This document shows positions 49,802 to 57,049 of a DNA stretch of 64,000 nucleotides, in pieces. Below the pieces are notes generated by a model, which saw only the letters and a list, made by a program, of their open reading frames with translations, was not told the DNA's origin and did not search any database. The DNA is from Halorarius litoreus (GTDB lineage Archaea > Halobacteriota > Halobacteria > Halobacteriales > Haloarculaceae). Location: the NCBI RefSeq assembly GCF_024362405.1, contig NZ_CP101454.1, forward strand, positions 3,782,001 to 3,846,000, written 5' to 3'. Each line of letters opens with the position of its first letter. The stretch's first letter is position 1. The position numbers were made by a program, and so were the translations under genes.

Positions 49802-49911
49802 CCACACCCGAGTCCCGGGGGTGAGTAAAGGCCACTTGTTTTTGGACAATCGTAGTGAAGGACGCCGAACACTCCGTTAGAGTGAAAGTCAGTGGCACGG
49901 AAGAGGTGTGT

Positions 49912-50328
49912 ATGAGTACGGAACAGGAGGAACGGACCATCCGGTGTCTCGTCGCCAAGGTCGGGCTCGACGGCCACGACCGCGGCGCACACGTTATCGC
50001 CCGTGCCTTCCGGGACGCGGGGTTCGAGGTCATCTACTCCGGACTGCACAAGGCGCCCGACGAAATCGTACAGGCGGCAGTCCAGGAGGACGTCGACGTC
50101 ATCGGCATCTCGATTCTCTCGGGTGCGCACAACACGCTCGTCCCGAAGGTCATCGAGGGCCTGAAGGAGTACGACGCGTTCGACGACACGCTGCTCATCC
50201 TCGGCGGCATCATCCCCGAGGAGGACCGCGCTGCCCTTCGCGAGCAGGGCGTCGCCGAAATCTTCGGGCCGGGCGCGACGATGGAGGAGACCATCTCGTT
50301 CGTCCGCGGGCACGCCCCCGAGCGATGA
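49912..50328 (+). CDS. mcmA2: Methylmalonyl-CoA mutase B12-binding subunit
   Basis: A 138-residue cobalamin-binding domain, the stand-alone C-terminal subunit of a methylmalonyl-CoA mutase-type enzyme. DGHDRG at 20-25 carries the B12-coordinating H22. VIGISILSGAHNTLVPKVIE and ILGGIIPEEDRAALREQGVA are the S/GG elements of the DxHxxG...SxL...GG pattern. ATG 49912 (MSTEQEERTIRCLVAKVGLD) is chosen; an open frame precedes it. It overlaps meaB by 4 nt. The large mutase subunit is not in the window. The mutase interconverts methylmalonyl-CoA and succinyl-CoA. Confidence 0.9.
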   Translation: MSTEQEERTIRCLVAKVGLDGHDRGAHVIARAFRDAGFEVIYSGLHKAPDEIVQAAVQEDVDVIGISILSGAHNTLVPKVIEGLKEYDAFDDTLLILGGIIPEEDRAALREQGVAEIFGPGATMEETISFVRGHAPER

Positions 50329-51392
50329 CCGACGGCGGGGACGACCTGCTCGACGACCTGCTCGCTGGCAAACACCGGGCGCTCGCGCGGGTTATCACGA
50401 AGATCGAGAACCGGTCGCCGGGCTACCGCGAGCTCGTCAGCCGACTCCACGAACATACCGGCGACGCCGACGTCGTCGGTATCACGGGCTCGCCCGGCGC
50501 GGGCAAGTCGACGCTCGTCGACAAGATGGCCGCCATCTACCGCGAACGGGGCCACACCGTCGGCATCATCGCCATCGACCCCTCCTCGCCGTTCACCGGT
50601 GGGGCGGTGCTGGGTGACCGCATCCGGATGGCCTCGAACGTTGGCGACATGGACGTGTTCTTCCGCTCGATGTCCGCCCGTGGGACACTCGGCGGACTGT
50701 CGACCGCGACGACGGACGCCGTGAAGGCGCTCGACGCGTTCGGCAAGGACAAGATCATCATCGAGACGGTCGGGGCGGGACAGAACGAGGTGGACATCGT
50801 GAAGACCGCCGACACGGTCGCGGTGCTCGTCCCGCCGTCGTCGGGCGACGACGTGCAGATGCTGAAGGCGGGCATCCTCGAGATCGGCGACGTGTTCGTC
50901 GTCAACAAAGCCGACCTCGACGGCGCGGCGAGAACGGTCCAGGAGCTCCGCGAGATGATCCACATGCGCGACGCCTCCCCGCTCGCCGGTGGTGGGCACC
51001 ACGGCGTCGCCGTAAGCAGTTTCGGGGGCGACGACGAGGACGAACCGGAGGCCGACGACGCGGACGACGAGTGGCAGCCACCCGTCGTCGAGACGGTGGC
51101 GAACACCGGCGAGGGCGTCGAGGACTTCCTGGAGACGCTGGCGGACCACCGGACGTGGCTGGAGACGACCGGCGAACTCGACGCGAAGCTCCGGAGTCGC
51201 TACGCCGAGGAGATCCGCGCGCTGTTGCGCGAGGACACCGCCGACCTCATCCAGCAGGAGCTCGACGCTCGCGGCGGCATCGAGTCGTTCGTCGACAGCG
51301 TCCTCGCGAAGGAGACGGACCCCTACCAGGTCGCCGACGAGGTCATCGAGCCGCTCGCCGACTGCGTCGCCGGGGATCGCGACGACTCGTAG
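50325..51392 (+). CDS. meaB: MeaB/ArgK-type G3E GTPase, mutase chaperone
   Basis: A 355-residue GTPase with P-loop GSPGAGKS at 55-62, the G3E-type Walker B ETVGAGQNE and NKAD near 210. SARGTLGGLSTATTDAVKAL is the switch region. A halophile acidic insert (EDEPEADDADDE) lies near 240. MeaB loads and protects the B12 cofactor of methylmalonyl-CoA mutase. Its ATG overlaps the TGA of the B12-binding subunit gene, so the two are co-translated. The C-terminal helices (LDAKLRSRYAEEIRALLRED) are dimerisation elements. The stop abuts that of the convergent CoA-binding gene. Confidence 0.94.
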   Translation: MTDGGDDLLDDLLAGKHRALARVITKIENRSPGYRELVSRLHEHTGDADVVGITGSPGAGKSTLVDKMAAIYRERGHTVGIIAIDPSSPFTGGAVLGDRIRMASNVGDMDVFFRSMSARGTLGGLSTATTDAVKALDAFGKDKIIIETVGAGQNEVDIVKTADTVAVLVPPSSGDDVQMLKAGILEIGDVFVVNKADLDGAARTVQELREMIHMRDASPLAGGGHHGVAVSSFGGDDEDEPEADDADDEWQPPVVETVANTGEGVEDFLETLADHRTWLETTGELDAKLRSRYAEEIRALLREDTADLIQQELDARGGIESFVDSVLAKETDPYQVADEVIEPLADCVAGDRDDS

Positions 51393-51803
51393 CTACCCGC
51401 GGAGCCGCCGGTGTACGACTTTCAGGCACTTGTCCTGGACGAACGTCCGGCCCGACTCTCGGACGCGCTCGCCAGCCTCGTCGTGTCGAATGCCGAGCTG
51501 GAGCCACACCGTGTCCACGTCGTCGCGGCTGAGCACCTGGTCGACGATGCCCGGCGCCTCGTCGCTCGGTCGGAACACGTCCACGATGTCGATGTGCTCG
51601 TCGACCTCGTCGAGTGAGTCGTACGCTTCGATGCCGAACACCTCGTCGGCGTACGGGTTCACCGGGATGATGCGGTAGCCGTGGTCCTTCATGTACTTCG
51701 GGACACCGTGGGCCGCCTTGCCGGGCGTCGCCGAACAGCCCACGACGGCGATGGTCTCTGCGTCGAGTACCTCGTTCAGGTCGACGTCACTCGTGGATGC
51801 CAT
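51393..51803 (-). CDS. CoA-binding domain protein
   Basis: A 136-residue stand-alone CoA_binding (YccU-like) Rossmann protein: VVGCSATPGKAAHGVPKYMK at 20-39, RIIPVNPYADEVFGIEAYDS, and DIVDVFRPSDEAPGIVDQVL. This small fold binds CoA or an acyl-CoA. Convergent with meaB (stops touch); co-occurrence with mutase genes fits CoA-ester metabolism, though its own reaction is unknown. Six-residue Arg-rich end (HRRLRG). Single gene. Confidence 0.9.
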   Translation of the reverse strand: MASTSDVDLNEVLDAETIAVVGCSATPGKAAHGVPKYMKDHGYRIIPVNPYADEVFGIEAYDSLDEVDEHIDIVDVFRPSDEAPGIVDQVLSRDDVDTVWLQLGIRHDEAGERVRESGRTFVQDKCLKVVHRRLRG

Positions 51804-51875
51804 ACCGAACCGACGCGCGTGGAAGGGGAAAAGCCTGTGTGGTCGTGCGCACCTCGCGTCACGTTCGCCACCCGC

Positions 51876-52481
51876 TCACCGGAACCGAGCGGTGACCGAC
51901 CCGTCGGCGTCGACCTGCAGCATCCCGTCGAACAGGCGGGAGATGGTGGTCACCGTCTCGCTGTCGTGCACGCCCGCCTCGACGAGGAACAGCCCGATAG
52001 CATCGGTGTTCTCGATGCGGGCGGTGAGAACGTGGAGGAAGCGAAATACCGTCTGGAGCGTCGAGTAGTGGAGCAGCGTCGATACCGACGCGAACAGCAC
52101 GCGGTTGTGCGTCAGCCCCCGGTCGACGGAGAACTGCTCGATGAGCTGTGAGGACTTGATACCGATGCCCGTCATGTCCTCGGGCGAGGAGGCGTACTGC
52201 ACCAGTTCGGTGTCCGCGATGGTGCCGTAGCCCTGCAGTTTCGTGATACAGTCGACGACGCCGACCGGGGCATCGTGTTCGAACAGCGTGGGCGCGATCT
52301 GGCGAACCCGGTCGGCGCTGTTCGTGTTGGTGACGACGATGCTCCCCTCGCCAGCCATCGCACCGTGTTCGAGTGTCTCGTAACCTAACGCCTCCTTGCC
52401 GGAGAGCGGCGGCCCCGAGAGCAACAGGTTCGTCCCTGCCTCGACTGTCCGGCCGCCGAACGACCCGCCGAGGTCATACAT
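51876..52481 (-). CDS. RecA-like ATPase-fold protein (DUF7504-like)
   Basis: A 201-residue KaiC/RecA-superfamily protein: a P-loop-like GPPLSGKEALGYE at 23-35, then GEGSIVVTNTNSADRVRQIA. The Walker B-like NTDAIGLFLVEAGVHDSETV lies near 158, and LTHNRVLFASVSTLLHYSTL near 124. It lacks obvious catalytic Glu spacing of full KaiC, so ATP binding may be regulatory. I remember DUF7504/HTR-like labels for such haloarchaeal proteins. Single gene in front of the UbiA gene, no operon signal. Confidence 0.72.
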   Translation of the reverse strand: MYDLGGSFGGRTVEAGTNLLLSGPPLSGKEALGYETLEHGAMAGEGSIVVTNTNSADRVRQIAPTLFEHDAPVGVVDCITKLQGYGTIADTELVQYASSPEDMTGIGIKSSQLIEQFSVDRGLTHNRVLFASVSTLLHYSTLQTVFRFLHVLTARIENTDAIGLFLVEAGVHDSETVTTISRLFDGMLQVDADGSVTARFR

Positions 52482-52575
52482 CTGGGACCCTCGTGGGCGG
52501 CGCGAACGCTCGGAGCCACGGGCCAGGCATCGTCTCTAATGGACCGGGACGCGCATTTAGCGTTTGTGCTTGGCT

Positions 52576-53433
52576 CTACACCGTGAGCCGGCCGACGACG
52601 AACGCGACGGCCGCGAGCAGCTGGCCGTACTTGAGCCACGTCTGGCCCCGCGTCGGGTCGTCGAAGCTCCAGTAGGCGGCCGCGAGCATCACGGCGTCCG
52701 CCGGGAGGACGGCCGCGAGATACGCGAGCGGGAACGTTCCGAGGAGGTACGGCGCGGGACTGGCGAGCAGGGCGAGCCCGAGGGCGACCACGGCCACGAC
52801 CAACGCCGTCCGCTCACCGTAGGCGATGGGGAGCGTGTTGAGCCCCTCCTCGCGGTCGCCGGCCACGTCCTCGACGTCCTTCACGACCTCGCGAGCGAAC
52901 GTCGCGAGCGCGGCGAGCAGGAACAGCACGACGACCGGTTCGAGCCGGCCTCCCACCGCGGCCCCACCGAACAGGAACGTCGAGCCGCCGAGGTAGCCAA
53001 CGAGCGCGTTGCCGACGCCCGGCAGCCCCTTGAACAGCTCCGTGTACGCGACGAGCGCGAGGAGGTTCACGACCGCGATACCGATGGCCAGCGGCGTCAG
53101 CAGCAGGGCGAGCACGACCGCGAGCCCGAACAGCACGACGGCGAACGCGAGCGCCCCGCGAGGAGAGACTGCGCCCCGAGGGATGGGCCGGTCGGGCGCG
53201 TTGATGCGGTCGATCTCCCGGTCGAAGTAGTCGTTGATGGCGTTGCCCGCGCCGACGGCGAGCATCGTCGCGACGACGGCTGCGGCGGCCCGAATCTCGG
53301 GGGCGGTGTCGACGAGCAGCCCTCCGGCACCGGCGTCGAGCCCGGCGACGAACGCGCCGATGAACGTGAGCAGCCCCGAGAGGACGGCGTTGCCCGGGCG
53401 CGTGAGTTCGAGGAGTCCGCCGAGCCGTTGCAT
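52576..53433 (-). CDS. UbiA-family prenyltransferase (archaeal lipid)
   Basis: A 285-residue UbiA-superfamily enzyme with about nine TM helices, starting MQRLGGLLELTRPGNAVLSG. The first Asp-rich motif N67DYFDREID75 (NAINDYFDREIDRINAPDRP) and second D-rich DVEDVAGDREEG are present. Sequence pattern and size fit digeranylgeranylglyceryl phosphate synthase, the second ether-bond step of archaeal phospholipid synthesis. Other UbiA branches (menaquinone, heme) have different signature loops, so this is the best call, not proven. No operon partner; 86 nt before tRNA-Arg. Confidence 0.85.
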   Translation of the reverse strand: MQRLGGLLELTRPGNAVLSGLLTFIGAFVAGLDAGAGGLLVDTAPEIRAAAAVVATMLAVGAGNAINDYFDREIDRINAPDRPIPRGAVSPRGALAFAVVLFGLAVVLALLLTPLAIGIAVVNLLALVAYTELFKGLPGVGNALVGYLGGSTFLFGGAAVGGRLEPVVVLFLLAALATFAREVVKDVEDVAGDREEGLNTLPIAYGERTALVVAVVALGLALLASPAPYLLGTFPLAYLAAVLPADAVMLAAAYWSFDDPTRGQTWLKYGQLLAAVAFVVGRLTV

Positions 53434-53518
53434 GCCCCGGCGTGGTAGCGGGCGTGGCTTCAACGCGTCGGAATGGGGATGGAAGGGCTTTTGTCAGGGA
53501 CCGCACTACCCGACGATA

Positions 53519-53593
53519 GGGCCCTTAGCTCAGCCTGGACAGAGTGCGTGGCTTCGGACCACGTTGCCGGGGGTTCAAATCCCTCAGGGCTCG
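53519..53593 (+). tRNA. tRNA-Arg (anticodon TCG)
   Basis: A complete cloverleaf: acceptor stem GGGCCCT (53519-53525) with AGGGCTC (53586-53592; one G-U), discriminator G53593. The anticodon stem CGTGG/CCACG closes loop CTTCGGA, anticodon TCG at 53554-53556. The T arm is GGGGG-TTCAAAT-CCCTC with one wobble. No intron and no encoded CCA. It reads CGA and relatives. The 3' 22 nt recur nearby. Confidence 0.95.
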
Positions 53594-53630
53594 CTTCTTG
53601 CGAACGCACGTGAGCAAGAGCGACGTCCAC

Positions 53631-53640
53631 GGGATTTGAA
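53631..53640 (-). repeat. Inverted TTCAAATCCC
   Basis: GGGATTTGAA is the exact reverse complement of the TTCAAATCCC of the tRNA T arm at 53574-53583. With the copy at 53682, this 110-nt stretch has direct and inverted tRNA-like pieces. Confidence 0.5.
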
Positions 53641-53681
53641 GCAGGGAGGTCGCGCGCAGCGAAGCGAGCACGTCCGACCGT

Positions 53682-53703
53682 GGTTCAAATCCCGCATGGC
53701 TCG
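53682..53703 (+). repeat. Partial copy of the tRNA-Arg 3' end
   Basis: Twenty of 22 positions match tRNA-Arg 53572-53593 (differences at two sites, T to G and G to T). No remaining tRNA body precedes it. Spacing between the copies is exactly 110 nt. This is what an old integration at the tRNA 3' end, or a fragment duplication, leaves. Confidence 0.7.
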
Positions 53704-53786
53704 CGCCCCCTCCAGAGAAACCCCACACGACGTGCGCCCCCTCCAGAATGCACCTTTACACGCCCGCACATCCATTGAGTGGCGTC

Positions 53787-54434
53787 ATGGGACACCGGCG
53801 GCAGAGTCGCGTGGCACCGACCCACCACGAGCTCGTCTTACTCAAGAGAGAGCTCGAGATTGCACGGAAGGGCGAGCACATTCTCGAGCGGCGCCGTGAC
53901 GGGCTCGTCTTCATCCTCCTCGACCTGCTCGACCGGTTACAGACACTACAAGCACAACTCGAGACGGAGTTCGCGGCCGTCGTCTATCTCCACCGGTTGG
54001 GAGCAGAGCGGGAGGGAGAGATCGTCCTCAGAGAGCTCGCGAAGGCGAGAGCGACACGACCCGAGCTCATCGTCACCGAGACGGAACTGCTCGGGCTCGA
54101 GATTCCGTTCATTCTGAGCCACCACATCAGCACCCGCGTGGATGAGCGGGGGTATGGTCTCCTCGGGACGTCTTCGTTGGATGACGAAATCGCCCGCGCG
54201 TACGAACAGGTAGTTGAAGAGGTCGTCAGGCTCGCCGAGATGCGAGCCGTCATCGCACACCTACTCAGAGAGATTCGCCGTCTGCGTATCCGGGTCAACT
54301 ACCTCAACCACCGGCTGCTTCCGGAGCTCGAAGCCGAGAAACGGTACATCGAGGGGTACCTCGCAGAGCGTGAACGCGAGGAGCGCTACCGGCAACTCTG
54401 GATGAAGCGCCGCACAGAGGAAGACAACGAGTGA
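53787..54434 (+). CDS. Orphan A/V-type ATP synthase subunit D-like protein
   Basis: A 215-residue protein with the AtpD family pattern: VAPTHHELVLLKRELEIARK and ERRRDGLVFILLDLLDRLQT (long coiled first helix), then the conserved centre ISTRVDERGYGLLGTSSLDD and RRLRIRVNYLNHRLLPELEA, with C-terminal EKRYIEGYLAEREREERYRQ. Subunit D is the central rotor shaft of A-type ATP synthase. The genuine haloarchaeal AtpD sits in the atp operon; this divergent copy is alone beside tRNA-Arg. A second, partly specialised rotor or a regulatory homologue is possible. ATG 53787 (MGHRRQSRVAPTHHEL) is preferred over the longer frame. It may be acquired by transfer. Confidence 0.85.
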   Translation: MGHRRQSRVAPTHHELVLLKRELEIARKGEHILERRRDGLVFILLDLLDRLQTLQAQLETEFAAVVYLHRLGAEREGEIVLRELAKARATRPELIVTETELLGLEIPFILSHHISTRVDERGYGLLGTSSLDDEIARAYEQVVEEVVRLAEMRAVIAHLLREIRRLRIRVNYLNHRLLPELEAEKRYIEGYLAEREREERYRQLWMKRRTEEDNE

Positions 54435-54474: not shown

Positions 54475-54675
54475 TCAGTGTCGCGGTGGCGGGTGGAGGT
54501 TCGCCTCCCGGATGGCGAACGCGACGACACCCAACACCAGCAACAGGCCGACGAAGAACTCGACGGCCGGGAGCGTCCCCGAGTTTATCCAGACGAGGAC
54601 GTCTTCGAACGCCAGGATGGCGAACAGGAGGACCAGCAGGATCACACCGTGTCTGCCGATGTTGACCTCGACCAT
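54475..54675 (-). CDS. Small two-helix membrane protein
   Basis: A 66-residue protein, MVEVNIGRHGVILLVLLFAI, with two TM helices (about 10-26 and 35-55, AVEFFVGLLLVLGVVAFAIR), and a positively charged end. ATG 54675 is the start; the frame before it is open, but shadow-like. No characterised family. Divides the AtpD-like gene from the next small membrane gene; the two run in the same direction. Confidence 0.6.
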   Translation of the reverse strand: MVEVNIGRHGVILLVLLFAILAFEDVLVWINSGTLPAVEFFVGLLLVLGVVAFAIREANLHPPPRH

Positions 54676-54745
54676 AGCAGTCGGTACAGCCACCGCATAT
54701 AAGAACCCGGGGGAACGACCGGCAGTCGCGAGCACGACAGGCCCG

Positions 54746-54973
54746 CTATTCGGTGAGCGGCAGGACGATGCCGAATACGATCGGCGAGAGGAGGAACAGG
54801 AACAGCCCGAGGATGCCAACGTCGAACAGGAGGGTCTCCTCCCACGCCGGCAGCGTGTAGTGCAGCCCGTGTGCCAGAAGCTCGGTACCCATGGAGAGCA
54901 CGAGTAGCGCGAGGCCGAGCAGGAAGCCGTTTCGAGTCAGTTTCGGATAGTTGAGGTTACCGTACCGTCCCAT
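54746..54973 (-). CDS. Small membrane protein
   Basis: A 75-residue protein, MGRYGNLNYPKLTRNGFLLG, with two TM helices (16-34, 47-72 LFDVGILGLFLFLLSPIVFG). A minus-strand TATA-like CTTTTAG (about 54999-55005) stands 27-30 nt before the ATG, giving a leaderless mRNA; GTG 54979 is an alternative start two codons before. Function unknown. Confidence 0.62.
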   Translation of the reverse strand: MGRYGNLNYPKLTRNGFLLGLALLVLSMGTELLAHGLHYTLPAWEETLLFDVGILGLFLFLLSPIVFGIVLPLTE

Positions 54974-55074
54974 ACTCACTGAACGACCAGTATCAGGCTA
55001 AAAGATTGCGAGAGAGTGTGTGACTTGCTGCCACAGGGTCGTACGTTCGCCCGACTGAGATACACTCGACATCG

Positions 55075-55614
55075 TCACTCGGACTGCTGGAACGTGTCGA
55101 GGGCACCCGGTGGGATTCGAGCGGGCGAGAATATTTTCACGCGGTCGCCAGCTTTGAGGACCGTATTGCCCCGCGGAGTGAGGATGCGGTCACCGCGTTG
55201 GATAGCGATGACCAGCAGGTCCTCGTGGATGAGCCCCGCGCGGTTCGCCTCCTGGAGCGTCTGGTCGGCGACGGGGGCGTCCTCGGCGATGACCACGATC
55301 TCGTCGTTCGGCGTCGCCTCCATCTCCGTCCGGAGCGTCTCGTGGTCGTCGTCGGGACCGAAATCGTGGAACGGGTGGTGGTACTCCGCCTGGATGAACT
55401 CCTCGTCTTCGACGGCGAGCCCCAGATTCGTGAGTTTCCGGGCGATGTGGCTCAGTCCGCCAGTGTCGCTCGCGACGACCTTCACCTGCAGGTTCCCCTG
55501 CCCGCTCATGAGTTTCACCACCTCGATGACCCCGGGGATTCGGAGCGCCTGCTGGGCGAGGCGAACATCGTGGCGACCCCGACGACACCCACAGTCCAGA
55601 GAAACCGCCGTCAA
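55075..55614 (-). pseudogene. TrkA-C domain protein, N-terminally truncated
   Basis: The ORF starts with TTG 55614. The C-terminal part (EDLLVIAIQRGDRILTPRGN, TVLKAGDRVKIFSPA) is a RCK/TrkA-C ligand domain. The middle matches the RAM-type segment of Lrp/TrkA-C fusion proteins (LAQQALRIPGVIEVVKLMSG; IARKLTNLGLAVEDEEFIQA; YHHPFHDFG). Family members have about 60-80 residues of HTH before LAQQAL. Here the frame opens only 18 codons ahead and reads Cys/Arg-rich sequence, with a TAG just upstream. No ATG start or Shine-Dalgarno. It is most probably a truncated gene; a functional short form is possible. Confidence 0.6.
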
Positions 55615-55918
55615 GCGGTGGACGAACGTGAAACGGGCATGAGCGGCGGACGATGCACACCGAGGTTGCTATACACTCCGTTCGTGCAGTACGATGACCT
55701 ACTGGGAGCGAGCTGGCCCGTTTCAGGCGACCATCTATCGATTAGCCGTCAGTATCGCGGCGGTGGGGGGAAGGTCCCGTCCCAGCTGACGGACAGGAGG
55801 ACCAGCAGCAAACGGCTACGAGCTGCCCCCACCGCCACCGGTGGTAGTAGCCGCCGATAGAGGCCAGAGCGGCGTTCTATGGCCCATTACTAACATCCAG
55901 ACAGTGGAATCGTCCACC
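55615..55918. other. 304-nt gap, no gene seen
   Basis: Between the truncated TrkA-C gene and the VIT1 gene. I searched for the missing HTH of the truncated gene in all frames and found none. It holds a TATA-like GTGTATAGC (minus strand, near 55670), a GC-rich patch (55762-55860), and an AT-rich stretch before ATG 55919 that is the likely VIT1 promoter. Confidence 0.5.
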
Positions 55919-57049
55919 ATGTCGAGCACCGAAGACCTCGCGCGGTTCCGTCGCAACCGGCAGGACGAGGTCGACAGCGCCACGGTCTACGAGGCAATGG
56001 CCACCGCCGAGTCCCAGCCACAACTCGCCAGCGTCTATCGCCGGCTCGCCGAGACCGAGCGATACCACGCGACGTTCTGGGCGGCGAAACTGCGCGAGGC
56101 GGGGGCCGACGTTCCCGCAGCACGCCCGTCGTGGCGCGCACGTGTTCTCGCGTGGACGGCGCGCCGCTTCGGCCCGGAGGTCGTCGTCTCGACGATGCGT
56201 GCCGGCGAAGCGACCGGCGGGTCGGACTACGCGACGCAACCCGAGGTCGAGGGAACCGGGATGGCCGCCGACGAACGGTCGCACGACCGGTTGCTCGCGG
56301 CCATCGAGCAGACGCCCGGGCGTGGCGTCGAGGGGAGCGTCCTCGCCCGTCTCGAGGGCCGCCACCGAGCGACGAGCGGGAACGCGCTCCGGGCTGCCGT
56401 CCTCGGGGCGAACGACGGGCTCGTCTCGAACCTCAGCCTCGTGATGGGCGTGGCCGGCGCCGCCCTCGACACGACGGCCATCCTGATTACGGGGCTCGCC
56501 GGCCTACTCGCCGGTGCCGGGTCGATGGCGATGGGTGAGTGGCTCTCCGTGCAGAGCTCCCGGGAGCTGTATCAGCGACAGATCGCCATCGAAGCGAGCG
56601 AACTCGCGGCCGCGCCCGACGAGGAGCGGGACGAACTGGCGCTCATCTACGAGGCGAAGGGACTGTCGCGGGCGCAGGCCGAACAGCTCGCAGACCAGTT
56701 GAGTGCCGACGAGACGACGGCGCTCGACACGCTCGCTCGCGAAGAGCTCGGCATCGACCCCGAGGAGCTGGGCGGGTCCGCGTGGGAGGCAGCCGGCGCG
56801 TCGTTCGTCCTGTTCGCGCTCGGGGCCATCGTCCCCGTGGTGCCGTTCTTCGCGCTGAGCGGCCTCCTCGCCGTGGTGGTGAGCCTCGTGTTGAGCGCGG
56901 TAGCCCTGTTCGTCGTCGGTGCCGGGATCACCCTCCTGACGGGTCGAAGCCTGCTGTTCTCGGGTGGTCGGCAGGTCGCCATCGGGCTCGCCGCCGCCGC
57001 GCTCACGTACGGCGTGGGCTCGCTCATCGGGGTGTCGATCGTCGGCTGA
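55919..57049 (+). CDS. Ferritin-like domain fused to VIT1/CCC1 metal transporter
   Basis: A 376-residue protein. Residues 1-90 are a rubrerythrin-like four-helix domain: SATVYEAMATAESQPQLASV (E25) and RLAETERYHATFWAAKLREA (E47, H50) are ExxH metal ligands. Then comes a VIT1/CCC1 membrane part from about 150: NALRAAVLGANDGLVSNLSL and LLAGAGSMAMGEWLSVQSSR carry the family's DGL and MGEW motifs, followed by three further TM helices. The fusion resembles membrane ferritin MbfA-type iron exporters. It takes iron or manganese from the cytoplasm out through the membrane. ATG 55919 chosen; earlier open frame ignored. Confidence 0.9.
   Translation: MSSTEDLARFRRNRQDEVDSATVYEAMATAESQPQLASVYRRLAETERYHATFWAAKLREAGADVPAARPSWRARVLAWTARRFGPEVVVSTMRAGEATGGSDYATQPEVEGTGMAADERSHDRLLAAIEQTPGRGVEGSVLARLEGRHRATSGNALRAAVLGANDGLVSNLSLVMGVAGAALDTTAILITGLAGLLAGAGSMAMGEWLSVQSSRELYQRQIAIEASELAAAPDEERDELALIYEAKGLSRAQAEQLADQLSADETTALDTLAREELGIDPEELGGSAWEAAGASFVLFALGAIVPVVPFFALSGLLAVVVSLVLSAVALFVVGAGITLLTGRSLLFSGGRQVAIGLAAAALTYGVGSLIGVSIVG

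Follow-up and report, generated by a model that had tools for sequence, protein, structure and literature searches.

The window analyzed here, a stretch of 64,000 nucleotides within the main contig of the two-contig, 4.17-Mb genome of Halorarius litoreus, carries atpD2, a gene for a divergent paralog of subunit D, the shaft of A/V-type ATP synthases. There is good support for the conclusion that the AtpD2 proteins form a distinct paralogous clade maintained by selection, that atpD2 is a stand-alone gene, and that it arrived in this genome laterally. As a rule, the genes for the rotor subunits of an ATP synthase are single-copy and stay within their operon.

A Subunit D Homolog outside the atp Operon

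The product of atpD2 (table 1), 215 amino acids long, matches the Pfam subunit D family PF01813 (E-value 1.3e-33; 117 bits against a cut-off of 25.7) over positions 1–195 of the 196 of the profile, and also passes TIGR00309, the NCBIfam model of a broad subfamily (116.8 against 72.25). It reaches none of the NCBIfam equivalog cut-offs (best score 154 bits against 261), and AtpD2 thus belongs to the subunit D superfamily yet falls outside the functional AtpD equivalogs. The open frame extends 5' to 53748; the start at 53787 is supported by a methionine that is invariant among the orthologs, which are 48–65% identical to the window protein. The same genome encodes a canonical AtpD, only 33% identical to AtpD2, whose gene (C1:2237530) lies directly 3' of atpA and atpB and about 1.6 Mb from atpD2; the latter is not located in an atp operon with partner genes. 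The initial annotation, made from the letters alone, had spoken of an orphan, divergent subunit D away from any atp operon, and these results agree with it on each point.

Other candidate explanations were examined and set aside. A second central stalk was sought in the genome through AtpF only, and a single AtpF gene was found. No phage or PHROG match suggested a viral origin, and no PADLOC model for defense systems matched atpD2 or three of its neighbors. Two Haloferax-family genomes (G053 and G097) gave a weak second PF01813 match, which in both proved to be a short coiled-coil match under the cut-off.

Table 1. Features in and around atpD2, in Window Coordinates
Feature	Position	Strand	Basis or remark
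tRNA-Arg(TCG), intact	53519..53594	+	ARAGORN; Rfam 57.9 bits; 3' end marks the limit of synteny with the sister species
att-like scar, a direct repeat of the terminal 23 nt of the tRNA	53682..53704	+	2 mismatches
TATA-like element (CCTTTACAC...)	53752..53762	+	about 30 nt 5' of the ATG; putative function
atpD2, stand-alone A/V-type ATP synthase subunit D paralog	53787..54434	+	PF01813, orthologs, invariant Met, dN/dS
Small hydrophobic-protein ORF	54475..54819	-	convergent with atpD2; true start probably close to 54675
DUF7860 small membrane protein	54746..54979	-	convergent with atpD2; PF25259, E 3.5e-29

Phylogeny, Distribution, and Lateral Arrival

AtpD2 was searched for in whole genomes at a threshold of E ≤ 1e-45, canonical AtpD reaching only about 1e-30 to 1e-39. 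When the whole order was sampled, 5 of 394 genomes encoded the protein. In the family of Haloferax and Halogeometricum it is present in 10 of 171 genomes, and in the window's own family in one of 148, the 147 other members lacking it; the sister species (G001) has none. Two copies reside on plasmids, pSVX82-2 of H. lucentense and pBNX82-2 of H. alexandrinus, and no match was found in phage records. Because most haloarchaea lack it, AtpD2 is dispensable.

In an IQ-TREE phylogeny of 86 D proteins, the 13 AtpD2 sequences included form one clade with a support of 100/100, on a stem of 1.72 substitutions per site, which attaches within or next to haloarchaeal AtpD (support for the combined group, 97.3/79). 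The window protein clusters with that of Halogeometricum (84/88) and is 58–65% identical to most AtpD2 proteins of other genera. This tree refutes the idea that atpD2 arose by simple, recent duplication of the atpD of the same cell, an outcome that we regard as practically eliminated: although the two proteins share a family and a domain length, the window protein resembles most AtpD2 of other genera far more than the AtpD of its own genome (33% identity), and the clade has full support. Conservation in its own right is likewise apparent from orthologs across genera and from purifying selection (see below).

The divergence of AtpD2 is 7–28 times that of AtpD from the same genomes when genera of the Haloferax family are compared with one another, whereas between the window and these genera the ratio is only 3.8–7.9, or 12.8 for the outlying g82. 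The window AtpD2 is thus closer to the others than the age of the split between the families would allow, which, together with its absence from 147 relatives, indicates lateral acquisition. Judging from these sequence comparisons, the genome probably gained atpD2 from a relative, and the proposal that it was acquired is probably right.

The tRNA-Arg Gene and the Synteny Break

According to blastn, positions 49872–53590 of the window are collinear with the sister species at 80% identity, and further blocks extend back to 44052. Collinearity ends at 53590, at the 3' end of the tRNA-Arg gene, and the matches of the right-hand part of the window sit elsewhere in the sister genome. The last 23 nucleotides of the tRNA are repeated about 110 bp downstream of the original, where no such repeat is expected by chance, and the repeat and the end of synteny together argue that the integration-type breakpoint is real. 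The initial annotation had described a disturbed tRNA with an integration-type scar; the scar stands, but ARAGORN and Rfam both recognize an intact tRNA.

The genome G011, from a different genus within this family, displays a comparable 3'-end duplication at the same tRNA (L156, 6751 and 6865), followed by genes that differ from those of the window. The duplicated 3' end therefore looks like a recurrent integration site of this tRNA, not a scar specific to AtpD2. Association with a tRNA was rejected as a conserved feature of atpD2, as no ortholog studied adjoins a tRNA and the nearest one, at a single locus, is about 6 kb away.

Several other features of this region were observed. The roughly 100 bp between the two copies are also similar in the two genera (77% over 185 bp; window 53572–53704 and L156 6751–6887), and the sister species lacks the duplication. 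The acceptor stem of the window tRNA is altered relative to that of related species and still pairs. Past the same tRNA, the sister species has a variable region (L153, 11215–16001) with genes resembling Mre11, Rad50, and a NurA-like nuclease. On the plus strand of the window, 55841–57049 encodes a VIT1-family protein whose N-terminal part resembles rubrerythrin. In the sister species, about 1.2 Mb separate the homolog of this gene from the tRNA-Arg gene, and the window has therefore been rearranged, or has received an insertion, on its right side.

Neighbors, Probable Promoter, and Selection

The small membrane proteins that the initial annotation placed after atpD2 do exist as ORFs (table 1), but on the minus strand and convergent with it. 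Neither the ORF at 54475 nor the one at 54746 was found beside atpD2 at the other atpD2 loci, and an operon or module comprising the three genes was accordingly rejected; the notion of an acquired module fails because these neighbors have the opposite orientation and show no relation to atpD2 in other genomes. Farther downstream on the minus strand, 55075–55614 encodes a 179-amino-acid protein with a TrkA-C domain and an AsnC/Lrp-like ligand-binding stretch (weak, below the cut-off), for which 40 relatives offered no close ortholog (best identity 42%).

An A/T-rich element occurs at an equal distance from the start codon in most of nine divergent orthologs, whose upstream genes differ. Across these nine upstream regions the A/T fraction reaches 0.72 from −32 to −29, compared with about 0.35 in the surroundings, and the summed score of the TATA-like element has a P value of about 0.0004 relative to random positions. 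The element probably serves as the promoter of a transcript with a short leader or none and, since a TATA-like element with a very short leader fits an archaeal promoter, atpD2 appears to be a one-gene transcription unit.

Values of dN/dS are 0.17–0.28 in the better-resolved Haloferax pairs and 0.25–0.36 between genera, and substitutions are concentrated at third positions, which shows that atpD2 is under purifying selection. This selection and the presence of a probable promoter of its own argue that AtpD2 is a real product.

The rdfA/SMC Neighborhood in Haloferax

At all six Haloferax loci examined, atpD2 is followed immediately, in the same orientation, by rdfA and an SMC-like gene of an archaea-specific type. 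On both plasmids the gap after atpD2 is 64 bp. The pair was not found in the neighborhoods fetched around the window gene and those of four other genera. Conversely, many other haloarchaeal plasmids carry rdfA, and none of these yielded an AtpD2. In Halogeometricum pallidum, a 115-amino-acid ORF about 1 kb from atpD2 and on the other strand (L052, 7026–7373) matches the SMC-like C-terminus with 66% identity over 114 residues and is possibly a remnant of the SMC-like gene. In H. volcanii, RdfA and Sph3 are required for rod formation (PMC10869688); the genes beside Haloferax atpD2 are paralogs of the RdfA–Sph3 family, not necessarily the H. volcanii locus itself. At two loci from different genera (L049, 8698–10914; L055, 5832–7883), atpD2 is adjoined on the opposite strand by an ORF of about 700 amino acids that is 80% identical between them.

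Predicted Fold and Interface Residues

The AlphaFold2 model of AtpD2, built from an alignment of six sequences, shows two helices, 26–103 and 144–227, with a mean pLDDT of 74 and a low-confidence loop. This predicted structure has the antiparallel long-helix fold of the shaft, and its best Foldseek matches in the PDB are subunits D of the Thermus and Enterococcus hirae V/A-ATPases (E-value 4e-7). At about half of the 54 columns that are invariant across archaeal AtpD, the consensus residue of AtpD2 is different. Those kept include PT, G42, L46, RD50-51, G116/P120, RGYG, D146, E153, AE163-164, RVN182-184, P192, L205, R215, and K220, and those replaced include E149, E160, T162, R164, A168, E170, and K200. 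AtpD2 has moreover gained a basic N-terminus (RR.xxR) and a basic C-terminus. In Haloferax (L040, L046, and L072) the C-terminus ends in a charged, repetitive tail (REAERREAEQ...) whose length varies and which the other genera lack.

The invariant residues that are not retained include the arginine of the rotor–stator contact and, at the same interface, an alanine involved in packing; both positions have measured effects. Alignment with PDB sequences equates positions 181 and 185 of AtpD2 (in a 228-residue numbering) with R165 and A169 of E. hirae D. At the former, all 13 AtpD2 sequences have a hydrophobic residue (I/L/V) where 73 of 73 AtpD have arginine; at the latter, 12 of the 13 have tyrosine as opposed to alanine in all 73 AtpD. 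The equivalent of E. hirae R166 is kept in 13/13. In E. hirae, the R165A substitution raises the KD of DF for A3B3 from 1.6 to 6.5 nM, a binding about 4-fold weaker, and increases the initial ATPase activity to 121% (PMC3772951). The region aligned with the short helix of Thermus D (residues 73–80) also differs from AtpD throughout the AtpD2 clade. Thermus VoV1 complexes in which this helix is foreign or deleted assemble but are fully uncoupled (PMC4355294).

Possible Functions of AtpD2

We tentatively propose that AtpD2 may act as a second kind of shaft, one that is built into the common A-type ATP synthase and makes its coupling looser. AtpD2 would most likely enter the A3B3 ring of the single A-type ATP synthase and replace AtpD in a fraction of the complexes, sharing the existing partners because the genome has no second AtpF. 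Since the R165/A169 contact and the short helix keying to subunit C are both changed, altered coupling is to be expected, and such complexes might be weakly coupled or uncoupled, in which case AtpD2 could serve as a conditional regulator of, or brake on, the ATP synthase. The retained shaft fold and signature motifs, the single AtpF, and the altered contact and coupling elements fit this isoform reading best. On the other hand, the change of about half of the invariant columns and the long stem also fit the loss of the ATP synthase as a partner, and no co-occurrence of AtpD2 with atp genes was detected; that most haloarchaea do without AtpD2 also speaks against this reading.

Nearly as likely is a repurposed shaft, in which case AtpD2 would be the coiled-coil axle or adaptor of a different partner, such as another ring ATPase or the RdfA/SMC-like proteins. 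Such a role would account for the systematic replacement of invariant D residues and for the gain of basic ends, and is also suggested by the rdfA and SMC-like genes directly downstream at six of six Haloferax loci and by the SMC C-terminal piece in Halogeometricum pallidum; yet the rdfA link is confined to Haloferax, neither the window nor four other genera showing it in the neighborhoods fetched, plasmids devoid of detected AtpD2 commonly carry rdfA, and AtpD2 retains the GYG loop motifs that characterize a rotor shaft. It is improbable that atpD2 is an accessory passenger that moves laterally, with little or no benefit to its host, and persists by chance in the vicinity of a tRNA hot spot. 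Its very patchy distribution, its location on plasmids in two Haloferax, the tRNA-adjacent synteny break in the window, and its fast evolution relative to AtpD would suit a passenger, but selection (dN/dS of 0.17–0.36 across comparisons) disfavors a near-neutral gene, as do the intact frames at all loci, the conserved position of the probable promoter, and the invariant residues kept across genera. The little probability that remains belongs to explanations outside this list.

The favored alternative-shaft reading and the adaptor reading can each be pushed further: AtpD2 might be the first stand-alone, mobile decoy shaft, which would uncouple or park the A-type motor or would have moved to another machine such as an SMC/RdfA cytoskeletal complex. 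We consider this extension rather unlikely.

Relation to Known Systems

Compared with AtpD (PF01813, TIGR00309, PRK00373), AtpD2 is alike in its homology over the full length, its two long helices joined by a central loop, its motifs, and its PDB matches; it differs by its location outside the atp operon, scores under the equivalog cut-offs, lack of the arginine and alanine equivalent to R165 and A169, altered short helix, basic ends, and much faster evolution. FliJ/YscO, the stalk of the type III secretion ATPase, offers a precedent for a D/gamma-like coiled coil in a hexamer that is not an ATP synthase. YscO (4mh6) was a weak match in the fold search with the AtpD2 model (E-value 0.048), but there is no sequence match and AtpD2 is much closer to true D. 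To our knowledge, haloarchaea have no secretion ATPase of the FliJ/YscO type. The RdfA–Sph3 pair (PMC10869688) resembles our case insofar as Haloferax atpD2 is directly upstream of a pair of rdfA/SMC-like paralogs; it differs in that this pair is absent near atpD2 of the window and of other genera, bar one SMC remnant, and has no known homology to AtpD2. A literature search of incomplete coverage yielded nothing relevant on an orphan or duplicated archaeal subunit D or on the AtpD2 clade.

AtpD2 has been hidden by its annotation as an ordinary subunit D, public Haloferax records labeling it plainly "V-type ATP synthase subunit D." Among natural rotary motors, a shaft paralog that is laterally spread, selected, free of any operon, and rewired in its contacts makes for an unusual variant. 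As Haloferax is genetically tractable, the role of AtpD2 is open to testing, and it could reveal either a way in which a rotary enzyme is regulated or a shaft in the course of becoming something else, as proposed for FliJ.
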